From Edaphobacter modestus (lineage in GTDB: Bacteria > Acidobacteriota > Terriglobia > Terriglobales > Acidobacteriaceae), in the NCBI RefSeq assembly GCF_004217555.1, contig NZ_SHKW01000001.1, positions 2,294,001 through 2,358,000 on the forward strand: a stretch of 64,000 bases of DNA. Reading direction: 5' to 3'. Position 1 is the first letter of the stretch; the number at the start of each line of letters is the position of its first letter. A program made the translations under genes and the position numbers. The notes below the pieces were generated by a model. The model ran no database searches. It saw nothing but the letters and a program-made list of their open reading frames with translations, and was not told where the DNA came from. This document shows, one piece after another, positions 60,846-64,000 of the stretch.

Positions 60846-62093
60846 ATGCAACGTGTGTCTGTCGCCGCCGCTCTTGTTCTCCTTGCACTTCCTCTTGCCG
60901 CTCAACAGCACAAGGCTACGCAGGCTGAGGTCGATCGCATTACCCGGGATGCCATTCTCATCGACACGCATAACGATGTGACCTCGCTAACCGTTGAAGG
61001 CTATGACATTGCCACGCCGAATAAGCGCGGTCAGACCGACCTTGCCAGGATGAAGGGCTTCCTAGGCGCTGAGTTCTTCGCAGTCTATGTCGGCGCAGAG
61101 TATGGGAACGGCAACCACTCCGCCAATCGCGCGCTGCAGATGATCGATACCGTGCGTACAGACGTCATCGCGGCACATCCCAGGGACTTCGTCTTTGCCA
61201 CGACAGCAGACGATATCGTTCGCGCACACAAGGAGCACAAGATCGCGGCGCTGATGGGGATCGAGGGCGGCCACGCGATCGAAGATTCGCTGCGCCTGCT
61301 GCGCGACTACTATGCGCTCGGCGTTCGCTACATGACTTTGACTCACTTCAACACGAATAACTGGGCAGACTCCCAGGGCGACGCAGAGAACCCCAAAGTC
61401 GCTCATCACGACGGCCTCACCCCGTTTGGAAAAGATGTCGTGCGGGAGATGAATCGCCTGGGCATGATGGTCGATATCTCTCACACCGCCGATAAGACCT
61501 TCTGGGATGCTCTTGAGACCTCCTCGGCTCCAATCATCGCCTCGCACTCCGGCTGTCGCGCAGTCACGAGCTACACCCGCAACATGACCGACGAGATGAT
61601 CAAGGCACTGGCAGCCAAGGGAGGAGTGGTTCAGATCAACTTCGGCTGCGAGTTCCTTTCCCAGCGCTACTTCGATGAGGCAAAGCCGCTCCAGGCTTCG
61701 ATGCGCGAGCAGTACATGGCCGCGATGAAGCTCGAAGACCCGGCGGCCAAAGCTGCGGCAATCGAAAAGCTACGTTCCGAGTTCACAAGCAAGGTCCCCC
61801 CAGCCACATTGGCCGATGTCGTGGCTCAGATCGATCATGCAGTCAAAGTTGGAGGAGTCGACCACGTCGGCCTCGGCACGGACTTCGACGGCGTCGCATG
61901 CGTTCCGCCAGAGCTGGATTCTTACAACAAGTTTCCGGCTCTTACCCGCGCACTCCTGAAGAAGGGATACAGCGCCGAGGACATCAAGAAGATCTACGGA
62001 GGCAATCTTCTGCGTGTGATGCGCGCTGTAGAACAGCGTGCACGGGAGCTTGGCTCCACTCCTGCGATTCATTCGGAGATCTCGAAAAAATAA
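60846..62093 (+). CDS. Exported membrane-dipeptidase-type peptidase (M19)
   Basis: The 415-aa protein has a signal peptide (about 1-20, LALPLAAQQ). Zinc-site motifs of M19 renal-dipeptidase-like enzymes are seen: DTHND (His and Asp ligands, residues about 38-42), GIEGGHAIED (bridging Glu), DISHTAD (His) and ASHSGCRAV (His). M19 enzymes split dipeptides, including those with a C-terminal D-residue. ATG 60846 is chosen because the signal peptide begins there. It converges with the RidA gene over a shared terminator. Confidence 0.92.
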   Translation: MQRVSVAAALVLLALPLAAQQHKATQAEVDRITRDAILIDTHNDVTSLTVEGYDIATPNKRGQTDLARMKGFLGAEFFAVYVGAEYGNGNHSANRALQMIDTVRTDVIAAHPRDFVFATTADDIVRAHKEHKIAALMGIEGGHAIEDSLRLLRDYYALGVRYMTLTHFNTNNWADSQGDAENPKVAHHDGLTPFGKDVVREMNRLGMMVDISHTADKTFWDALETSSAPIIASHSGCRAVTSYTRNMTDEMIKALAAKGGVVQINFGCEFLSQRYFDEAKPLQASMREQYMAAMKLEDPAAKAAAIEKLRSEFTSKVPPATLADVVAQIDHAVKVGGVDHVGLGTDFDGVACVPPELDSYNKFPALTRALLKKGYSAEDIKKIYGGNLLRVMRAVEQRARELGSTPAIHSEISKK

Positions 62094-62167: not shown

Positions 62168-62650
62168 TTATTTGCTCTTCACGGCAATCACTTCGATCTC
62201 AAGCACCGCCCACGGAGCCGCAAGCGCTGCAACCTGAAAGGCCGAGCGCGCCGGCTTGTTCGGCTGTTCTTTGGTCCCGAAATACTTCACATACTCCGAC
62301 TGCATTCCGGCGAAGTCCAGCTTGCCGGTGTTGGGATCAGGTCCGAGGAAGACCGTCATCTTCACGACATCCTTCATGTCGAGCCCCTGCTCCTTCAGAG
62401 CTGCCTGAATTTTAGGGAAGATGCTTGCCGCCTGTACCTTGGTGTCGCCGTAATCGGCCTGCGTTCCCTTTGCCGGATCGGCTGCGGTAACAGGTGAGGC
62501 AAGCTGTCCGCTCAGGTAATACGTATCGCCGACCCACACGCCCTTCGCGATGGCGGCCTTCTCGTCCTGGATATGTTTCACAACCGTCTGTGCCTGCATG
62601 GAGCACGCGCAGGCGGCCATCATTGCTGCTGCCAGTAAACTCTTCCTCAT
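62168..62650 (-). CDS. Exported RidA-family (enamine/imine deaminase) protein
   Basis: The 160-aa protein has an N-terminal export signal (about 1-21, MRKSLLAAAMMAACACSMQA) followed by a RidA/YjgF domain: GDTYYLSGQLA, ALKEQGLDMKDVVKMTVFL, and PARSAFQVAALA, with the conserved Arg that binds the substrate carboxylate. RidA hydrolyses reactive imines/enamines. RidA proteins are usually cytoplasmic, so export is notable. It lies 31 nt after a flavin amine oxidase gene on the same strand, and shares an operon with it. The 'CAC' in the signal could also make it a lipoprotein, though the lipobox is poor. Confidence 0.88.
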   Translation of the reverse strand: MRKSLLAAAMMAACACSMQAQTVVKHIQDEKAAIAKGVWVGDTYYLSGQLASPVTAADPAKGTQADYGDTKVQAASIFPKIQAALKEQGLDMKDVVKMTVFLGPDPNTGKLDFAGMQSEYVKYFGTKEQPNKPARSAFQVAALAAPWAVLEIEVIAVKSK

Positions 62651-62681
62651 CCAACAGTCTCCTTATCGATCTCTTTCGCTG

Positions 62682-64000
62682 TTACGCCGAAACCGTCTGA
62701 CGATGGTTGCCCTCAAGCCGCGCCGCCTTCACCTTGTCGCAGATCATCTGGACGGCACGCCTTCCGCTCTCCGCAGCGCCCTCCTGCCACCCCACGACGT
62801 GGCTGGTGTGATCGCCCGCAAAGTAGATAGGTCCATCCGGTGCGGTAATCACGTCGTAATCTTCCTTAGGCGTTTGCCCAATCCATGAGCCCTCGTTCCA
62901 CTTGATGTGTTTCCATCCGCAGAAGATTGGCTTTTCGAGCTCCTTGCCATGGCCCGGGTGCAGCTTCTCGATCGAAGCGCGGGAGGCTTCAAACTTCTGT
63001 TCTATGGTGAGCTGGTCAAAACCGCCCATCGCCTCGTCCATATAACCGGAGACGATGATGCCACGATCAGAGAACATCGACGCGCTGGGATACCAGATCG
63101 GGCTCGGCCCCTGAGACAGGAAGGAGAGACCACCATAGATGTTGTAGTCCGTCTCCCAGAACCGACGCGACTCCCACGGCACCTTACAGGAACCGCGGTA
63201 CGACGCGCCTCCGCGGTCGACCACAGCACGATGCGCCGGATCCAGATCGGCCTTGATCTTCTTGAGGATCGTCAGGGGCATTGCGCACACCGCATAGTCG
63301 GCCTCGATATGTTTGCCGTTGCCATACCCCACACGGACTCCCTTGGCCGTCTTCGCAATCTCCGTTACCGGAGCGTCGTAAACAACGACCGGTCCCAGGC
63401 TCTTGGCGAGCGCGATAGAGATCTGCTGCATGCCATTCACCGGCTGGAACATCGTTGCCTGCCAGTCCCACGCCTCCTCGTAAAGCTCAGCGCTCCAGAA
63501 GTTCGCATCCAGTAACTCATGAACGCTAAGCGGATGATCATCAACAATCATCGTCTTGGGCCCGGCGCCGGGATAGCGCTTGATGTCGGCGCGATCGGAG
63601 CCGACATACTTTCCACTCTTATCGAGCGGACCATAAATCTTCAGGACGTCGACCATCTTCTGCCGATCCTCGGTACTCAGTTCCTGGTCGAGTGCGCCGC
63701 CGGCAATTGCCTTTGTCAGCAGTTCGCTGACCTGCCCGCGCGTATCGTTGATCGCCTTGCGCTGGCATATCGCCTTGCCGCCATTTATCTTGTCGCTCTG
63801 CAGCAGCGACGAGCGCGACGTGTTGACCTCAACCTCGAGGGGAACCTTCAGTTCCCGGCAATAGCCAAGCATCGTTCCATGCACCGATGGAAGCCGTGCA
63901 GGTCCCATGTTCTGATAGAGTCCTTCACTCCAACTGATGGATTGCTTCGTTCCATCGACGAACTCGACCACATCACCATTTCGAGCGCTCCAGGCCCTTC
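62682..64000 (-). CDS. Flavin monoamine / L-amino-acid oxidase family protein (5' end cut)
   Basis: The reverse frame is open to the window edge; the N-terminal FAD-binding motif lies outside. In the visible ~438 residues: the frame enters at RAWSARNGD, typical of the region after the GGR motif, then substrate-domain segments (FQPVNGMQQISIALAKSLGP), and the C-terminal FAD motif IYFAGDHTSHVVGWQEGAAE. This fits L-amino-acid oxidases and related amine oxidases, which produce imines, H2O2 and then keto acids. The next gene encodes an exported RidA, a natural partner. Whether this enzyme is exported cannot be judged without its N-terminus. Confidence 0.87.
   Translation of the reverse strand, partial: RAWSARNGDVVEFVDGTKQSISWSEGLYQNMGPARLPSVHGTMLGYCRELKVPLEVEVNTSRSSLLQSDKINGGKAICQRKAINDTRGQVSELLTKAIAGGALDQELSTEDRQKMVDVLKIYGPLDKSGKYVGSDRADIKRYPGAGPKTMIVDDHPLSVHELLDANFWSAELYEEAWDWQATMFQPVNGMQQISIALAKSLGPVVVYDAPVTEIAKTAKGVRVGYGNGKHIEADYAVCAMPLTILKKIKADLDPAHRAVVDRGGASYRGSCKVPWESRRFWETDYNIYGGLSFLSQGPSPIWYPSASMFSDRGIIVSGYMDEAMGGFDQLTIEQKFEASRASIEKLHPGHGKELEKPIFCGWKHIKWNEGSWIGQTPKEDYDVITAPDGPIYFAGDHTSHVVGWQEGAAESGRRAVQMICDKVKAARLEGNHRQTVSA

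Follow-up and report, generated by a model that had tools for sequence, protein, structure and literature searches.

A conserved gene pair predicted to encode an exported amino-acid oxidase and an exported Rid3-type imine deaminase in Acidobacteriota and Pseudomonadota

Introduction

Can a Rid-family protein work outside the cytoplasm, together with an amino-acid oxidase? Two adjacent genes raise this question at the end of the window, by which we mean the whole 64,000-nucleotide stretch of Edaphobacter modestus DNA that was analysed. A preliminary description of this DNA had proposed that a RidA protein with a signal peptide hydrolyses the imine made by a flavin amino-acid oxidase, and had called such an exported protein unusual. 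The pairing of an oxidase with RidA and an extracytoplasmic role for it have already been proposed, as the available sections of two papers state (PMC5053998, PMC10805672). The lao-cccA-ridA locus of Gluconacetobacter diazotrophicus, described in 2016, encodes, in one operon with a Rid, an LAO with a Tat signal, for which a periplasmic location was proposed, and the same arrangement was reported in Caulobacter, Xanthomonas and other genomes (available sections of PMC5053998). In the periplasm of the alga Chlamydomonas, LAO1 and LAO2/RIDA were proposed in 2023 to deaminate amino acids jointly (available sections of PMC10805672).

Results

Gene layout

The pair and its neighbour in the window are as follows.

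62168–62650, minus strand: Rid gene, encoding a predicted exported Rid3-type imine deaminase of 160 aa, ATG start
62591–62650, minus strand: Rid signal peptide (residues 1–20), Sec type, with cleavage near the SMQA/QT junction as judged by eye
62651–62681, minus strand: gap of 31 nt separating the oxidase stop from the Rid gene; AAGGAG precedes the start codon of the latter by 8 nt
62682–64000, minus strand: putative L-amino-acid oxidase (PF01593), of which the C-terminal 438 residues lie in the window; the gene runs off the window end
60846–62093, plus strand: M19 (membrane-dipeptidase family) gene, PF01244 with E 1.3e-105, export-type N-terminus by eye

The spacing given in the preliminary description proved correct: the oxidase stop codon ends at 62682, and 31 nt separate it from the signal-bearing Rid ORF (62168–62650) on the minus strand. 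The full oxidase gene continues for about 260 nt past the window end, covering approximately 62682–64260 in window-equivalent numbering (L004:6683-8260 in the source genome). A DNA search of this genome returned one full match, plus two short matches within a second oxidase gene. Upstream of the oxidase lies a divergent gene, MgtC-like by eye, and downstream of the Rid lies the convergent M19 gene, so that the transcription unit consists of the oxidase followed by the Rid; the M19 gene is not counted in the operon because it converges on the Rid gene. We consider it likely that the oxidase and Rid genes are an operon-like pair whose products deaminate amino acids outside the cytoplasm, with export and imine hydrolysis as proposed below.

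The oxidase

The preliminary description had suggested looking beyond the window for an export signal on the oxidase, and one was found there. With the sequence past the window end taken from the genome, the whole oxidase comprises 525 aa and begins with MGITRRDFLMR (MGITRRDFLMRVGQAGG; MGITRRDFLMRVGQAGGYSAAF), an N-terminus of the twin-arginine (Tat) type, and a TatC gene is present in the same genome. Because of the Tat-type signal on the full gene, we rejected a cytoplasmic oxidase.

The in-window part of the protein matches the Pfam Amino_oxidase family (PF01593, E 5.7e-27), and its best solved relative is the Rhodococcus opacus L-amino-acid oxidase (2jae; E 1.4e-76, 261.6 bits), followed at 76.9 bits by a protein that is likewise an LAAO. 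The window oxidase thus shares with the R. opacus enzyme its sequence family and, by alignment, the carboxylate-site Arg. It contains GGGVGG at position 57, Arg122 within GPARLP, Tyr375 and Trp491, the first being the FAD motif and the second the carboxylate-site Arg. Three features of an R. opacus-type LAAO, the Amino_oxidase domain, the FAD motif and the carboxylate-site Arg, are therefore all found. All 116 distinct oxidases from the surveys below have the substrate-carboxylate Arg motif, and simple pattern searches detected the FAD, Tyr and Trp motifs in 104, 104 and 100 of them, respectively; these 116 oxidases and the 133 paired Rids come from sample sets that share species. Matches to carotenoid or protoporphyrinogen enzymes in NCBIfam were far below their cut-offs, and these identities were rejected. 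Judged by its sequence, the oxidase probably oxidises amino acids.

The Rid protein

The Rid matches Ribonuc_L-PSP (PF01042) with E 1.1e-18 and 67.9 bits, against a cut-off of 27.3. Its catalytic residues, Arg135 and Glu151, are invariant in our alignments, one of which includes the canonical RidA of the same genome. In that alignment, Ile34 stands at the Tyr column of canonical RidA, as does Ile in four other pair-type Rids. The archetypal RidA model (TIGR00004, Rid detoxifying hydrolase) scored 63.3 bits, below its cut-off of 106.25. The name RidA used in the preliminary description therefore does not fit; with a Rid domain, the catalytic Arg and Glu kept and the RidA Tyr replaced by Ile, the protein resembles the Rid3 subfamily, which was reportedly defined by Niehaus in 2015. 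Its closest PDB entries are PSPTO3006 (9bka, E 1e-28) and PFL1385 (9bkc, E 2.1e-22). Both are assigned to Rid3, and their activity on LAAO-made imines has been published (available sections of PMC5619798). The window protein is of the Rid3 type, and on sequence grounds we predict that it is an imine deaminase. A context resembling that of the catalytic Arg is present in 131 of 133 paired Rids.

The N-terminus of the Rid (MRKSLLAAAMMAACACSMQAQ) is a Sec-type signal peptide according to inspection by eye and a home-made hydropathy score, the two means by which signal peptides were judged here in place of SignalP. We also considered a lipoprotein, and rejected this because the Cys is absent from the near orthologue L056. 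Both gene products are thus predicted to be exported.

Conservation in Terriglobales

With the window Rid as query, a search of 150 genomes of the order returned 68 places in 51 genomes, 43 of which were strong matches (E <= 1e-50); 41 of these 43 loci were fetched together with flanks of about 6 to 7 kb. An oxidase gene on the same strand adjoins 40 of the 43 (38 of the 41 fetched loci, plus G029 and G049 by coordinates). In all 38 fetched pairs the oxidase lies directly upstream of the Rid, 9 to 126 nt away, and carries an RR motif, and 37 of the 38 Rids, that of the window included, passed the signal score. The two genes overlap by 8–11 nt in some relatives, which suggests translational coupling. 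Given this conservation, adjacency by chance is very unlikely. The three strong loci lacking an adjacent oxidase (G053, G147 and G123) have one elsewhere in the genome.

Among the 25 weaker matches, 20 were fetched: three were paired, 12 were of the export type by score and unpaired, and the remaining five had neither a signal by score nor an oxidase nearby. Within this last group, four look like canonical RidA, and the fifth is L091, whose start could not be placed. Unpaired export-type Rids thus occurred at 3 of 41 strong and 12 of 20 weaker loci. Conversely, the oxidase was found in 53 of the 150 genomes, 46 of them with a Rid beside it or elsewhere among the matches and seven without. At 10 of the 41 strong Rid loci, counting the window's own, the roughly 14 kb fetched contained an M19 match. 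At L048:8856-10220, a gene that looks by eye like a flavin oxidase, with no obvious signal, lies about 1.4 kb from an unpaired exported Rid.

Pairs beyond the order

We then looked at named genomes, a scan that covered the best 80 of 476 loci, is no census and shares species with the order sample. Among these best 80 loci, an oxidase lay within 1.5 kb of the Rid in 65 and on the same strand in 63. Some of the paired loci carry the labels Caulobacter segnis, Sphingobium, Aminobacter, Solimonas and Psychrosphaera; of the 15 unpaired loci, at least L121 and L152 are close to a contig end. The signal score was passed by 61 of the 65 paired Rids, and the RR motif was present in 63 of the 65 oxidases, the other two (L100 and L123) being cut by contig ends.

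A strong match to the wide profile A2 (E <= 1e-22) was found in 22 of 349 Pseudomonadota genomes sampled with G150 as the chosen centre, and in 20 of the 22 an oxidase lay within 1.5 kb. Twenty loci were fetched together, of which 19 were paired within 1.5 kb and one at 3.3 kb; as for the remaining two genomes, G150 has a pair (L160), and G468 has a partial Rid with no oxidase nearby (L250). Among the 19 pairs, the Rid passed the signal score in 18 and looked exported by eye in 17, and the oxidase carried the RR motif in 14. The survey of co-occurrence that the preliminary description had advised thus bears out the pairing, with an oxidase beside 40 of 43 strong Rid matches in the order and in 20 of 22 Pseudomonadota genomes. 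These results show that the pair is conserved across Acidobacteriota and Pseudomonadota; the possibility that it is unique to this genome is refuted.

In 14 of the 19 Pseudomonadota pairs, an open frame with a CxxCH motif lies between oxidase and Rid, the arrangement published for Gluconacetobacter (available sections of PMC5053998). An intervening CxxCH was flagged in 5 of the 65 pairs from the best 80 of 476 named loci; in one of these five, L168, the two genes are on opposite strands. Because the CxxCH frames suggest electron transfer to cytochrome c, and because PF01593 is functionally broad, the oxidase could instead be a dehydrogenase of other amines or a part of the respiratory chain, with the Rid removing a different imine, such as that of a polyamine or an amino sugar. 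We regard this as unlikely. The R. opacus LAAO is by far the best solved relative (261.6 versus 76.9 bits), with the carboxylate-site Arg aligned, and the gaps of 9–126 nt in the 38 fetched pairs of the order are too small to hold a cytochrome gene between the partners.

Compartment of the two partners

In the Pseudomonas family (the family of G444), a Rid match was present in 17 of 148 genomes, and 15 of the 17 were paired; five of these genomes also belong to the Pseudomonadota sample. Among the pairs of this family, the signal score was passed by 11 of 11 Rids, 9 of 11 looked exported by eye, and 9 of 11 oxidases carried the RR motif. The Rids of four loci (L207, L208, L243 and L244) lack the N-terminal extension of their exported relatives, their starts lying about 20 residues further in. 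The partner oxidases at these loci begin MGLTRREALSSIAAVGGE.. (MALTRREA.. in L244) and carry charged residues within the Tat h-region, a stretch that is uncharged in exported relatives. The hydropathy score wrongly passed these four Rids, the scored stretch lying within the mature fold, and it rejected L198, which appears to begin with a lipoprotein signal. L139, L153 and L168 failed as well, and L045/L143 lack a credible start codon.

Read by eye, as this whole comparison is, the N-termini suggest that the two partners share a compartment, both being exported or both retained, and that four Pseudomonas-family genomes appear to have lost export jointly. The apparent joint change of compartment was probably one evolutionary event. 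Three other Pseudomonadota oxidases (L195, L209 and L210) miss the RR pattern, yet their Rids look exported.

PSPTO3006, which the four Rids without an extension resemble, has no signal peptide, unlike the window Rid, and aligns end to end with the L207 Rid. The N-terminus of PFL1385 is signal-peptide-like, and its alignment with the exported L245 Rid begins at residue 3 and so takes in the signal peptide. The Rids closest to PFL1385 (L245–L248) are encoded about 90 nt behind a Tat-type oxidase gene; the gene contexts used here for both proteins are those of close relatives rather than their own. This suggests that PFL1385, already crystallised and assayed, is an exported partner of this kind.

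Oxidase genes without a Rid

Three genomes of the same genus as the source (G045, G006 and G033) encode an oxidase 77–83% identical to that of the window, adjoining an M19 gene. No Rid lies between these two genes, and tblastn and blastn searches (E <= 10) returned only short, chance-like matches; in G045 a gap of only about 10 nt separates the oxidase gene from the M19 gene. Since three relatives have kept the oxidase and the M19 gene without it, the Rid is dispensable rather than essential, in keeping with an enzyme that accelerates a spontaneous reaction. Four other genomes (G024, G059, G143 and G025) have the oxidase and no Rid match in the search of the order; the G025 contig ends just behind the oxidase. 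The source genome itself has a second Tat-type oxidase (L005:8962-10524), which is 46% identical to the window oxidase; the 16 kb fetched there contain no Rid match.

The losses also bear on whether the Rid3 protein is mainly a non-catalytic partner that stabilises the oxidase, rather than an imine hydrolase. Such a subunit is known from Chlamydomonas, where a periplasmic complex contains a catalytic oxidase subunit and a RidA-like non-catalytic one (cited in the available sections of PMC5053998), and tight gene linkage would fit an oxidase–Rid complex. The persistence of oxidase genes without a Rid in three relatives argues against a stabilising role, as do the catalytic-Arg-like context in 131 of 133 partner Rids and the imine-deaminase activity of two Rid3 relatives (available sections of PMC5619798), and we think this role improbable, even less likely than a different substrate. 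The Rid probably hydrolyses the reactive imine made by the oxidase.

Other exported Rids

The rarity that the preliminary description had ascribed to exported Rids did not hold, since five of the eight Rid genes of the source genome have export-type N-termini by eye and three do not. The window gene, L251 and L255 are of the Sec type, and L252 and L253 are of the Tat type. Besides the window and L253 genes, these are located at L251:6199-6669, L252:5764-6219 and L255:6118-6567. The L251 Rid gene adjoins a luciferase-like monooxygenase gene, and by eye its product has Ser at the expected catalytic Arg. The fifth gene lies in a cluster:

L253:4672-9765 (G000:C1 ~394671-399770): Tat PLP enzyme, Tat Rid, second Tat PLP enzyme and amidohydrolase, in a row

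The two PLP proteins are related to the DgaE ammonia lyase (NCBIfam selA_rel, E 6e-51 and 1.6e-41, neither reaching the curated cut-off). When the first is aligned with 7lc0, the SGxK lysines fall in register. A Rid of the L253 type occurs in 39 of the 150 genomes of the order (E <= 1e-22), and at the best place in each, a related PLP gene on the same strand stands no more than 300 nt from the Rid in 35 of the 39; a PLP gene lies upstream in 31 and downstream in 32. None of 16 further, weaker places has a related PLP gene within 1.5 kb. In 20 of the 39 best loci, the source genome's included, an N-terminal RR was present in 20 of 20 Rids and in 17 of 17 first and 17 of 17 second PLP genes found there; in four of these 20 loci, a PLP gene is more distant and in the opposite orientation. 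We found no description of an exported PLP–Rid cluster in the available sections of the literature searched, and this cluster may be more novel than the oxidase–Rid pair.

Discussion

We propose that the oxidase would fold with FAD in the cytoplasm and then be exported by Tat, and that Sec would export the Rid3 protein. The oxidase would convert an L-amino acid to a 2-imino acid outside the inner membrane, passing its electrons to O2 or a respiratory carrier, and the Rid3 protein would rapidly hydrolyse the imino acid to a 2-oxo acid and ammonium. With quick removal, the imine would neither linger nor react with nearby amines, and the benefit could be nitrogen scavenging or the avoidance of imine damage. 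The substrate, location, benefit and electron acceptor are those that we infer for the window pair. Our guess is that the M19 neighbour could supply amino acids from dipeptides, although its gene is convergent.

By analogy, published work on Rid3 proteins in vitro supports the proposed imine chemistry. PFL_1385 and PSPTO_3006 are imine deaminases on imines produced by snake-venom L-amino-acid oxidase, and PFL_1385 is also active on iminoarginine. With the leucine imine made by LAAO, both strongly cut semicarbazone formation, from 46 to 2; with the histidine imine the cut was smaller, from 22 to 9 and 8. Four of six Rid1–3 proteins replaced RidA in Salmonella, the two that failed not being named in that section (all from the available sections of PMC5619798).

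The overall interpretation in the preliminary description is partly supported. Neither outcome that it named as counter-evidence was seen, since the oxidase has a Tat-type signal and the pair is conserved far beyond this genome; the RidA label and the rarity of exported Rids have to be given up. Compared with lao-cccA-ridA, the window likewise has a Tat-type oxidase gene adjoining a Rid gene on the same strand, but the two are separated by 31 nt, with no cytochrome c gene between them; the available sections of PMC5053998 contain no mention of a signal peptide on the Rid, whereas the window Rid has one. Chlamydomonas LAO1 and LAO2/RIDA resemble the window pair in that an extracytoplasmic oxidase and a Rid are proposed to act together, and differ in belonging to a eukaryotic alga and a context of nitrogen scavenging and auxin (available sections of PMC10805672). 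Nowhere in the available sections of the literature searched did we find a signal peptide described for an oxidase-linked Rid from a bacterium. What we did not see in those of PMC5053998 and PMC10805672 is the bacterial Rid signal, a survey of this extent, the apparent joint change of compartment and the natural losses.

These findings make a broad and consistent genomic case for a Rid-family protein that works outside the cytoplasm with an amino-acid oxidase. The natural losses of the Rid provide ready comparisons for what it contributes, as does the one Pseudomonas-family lineage in which both partners apparently lost export. It is possible, though we put this forward tentatively and with some doubt, that imine chemistry outside the cytoplasm is a dedicated activity, in which each of several exported enzymes that produce imines is served by an exported Rid of its own, with one branch pairing an FAD oxidase with a Sec Rid3 and another pairing two DgaE-like Tat PLP enzymes with a Tat Rid. 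If so, Rid proteins would not function solely in the metabolism of the cytoplasm, and members of this order would routinely carry out PLP catalysis beyond it. The ammonium and oxo acids released could matter for nitrogen scavenging in soil.
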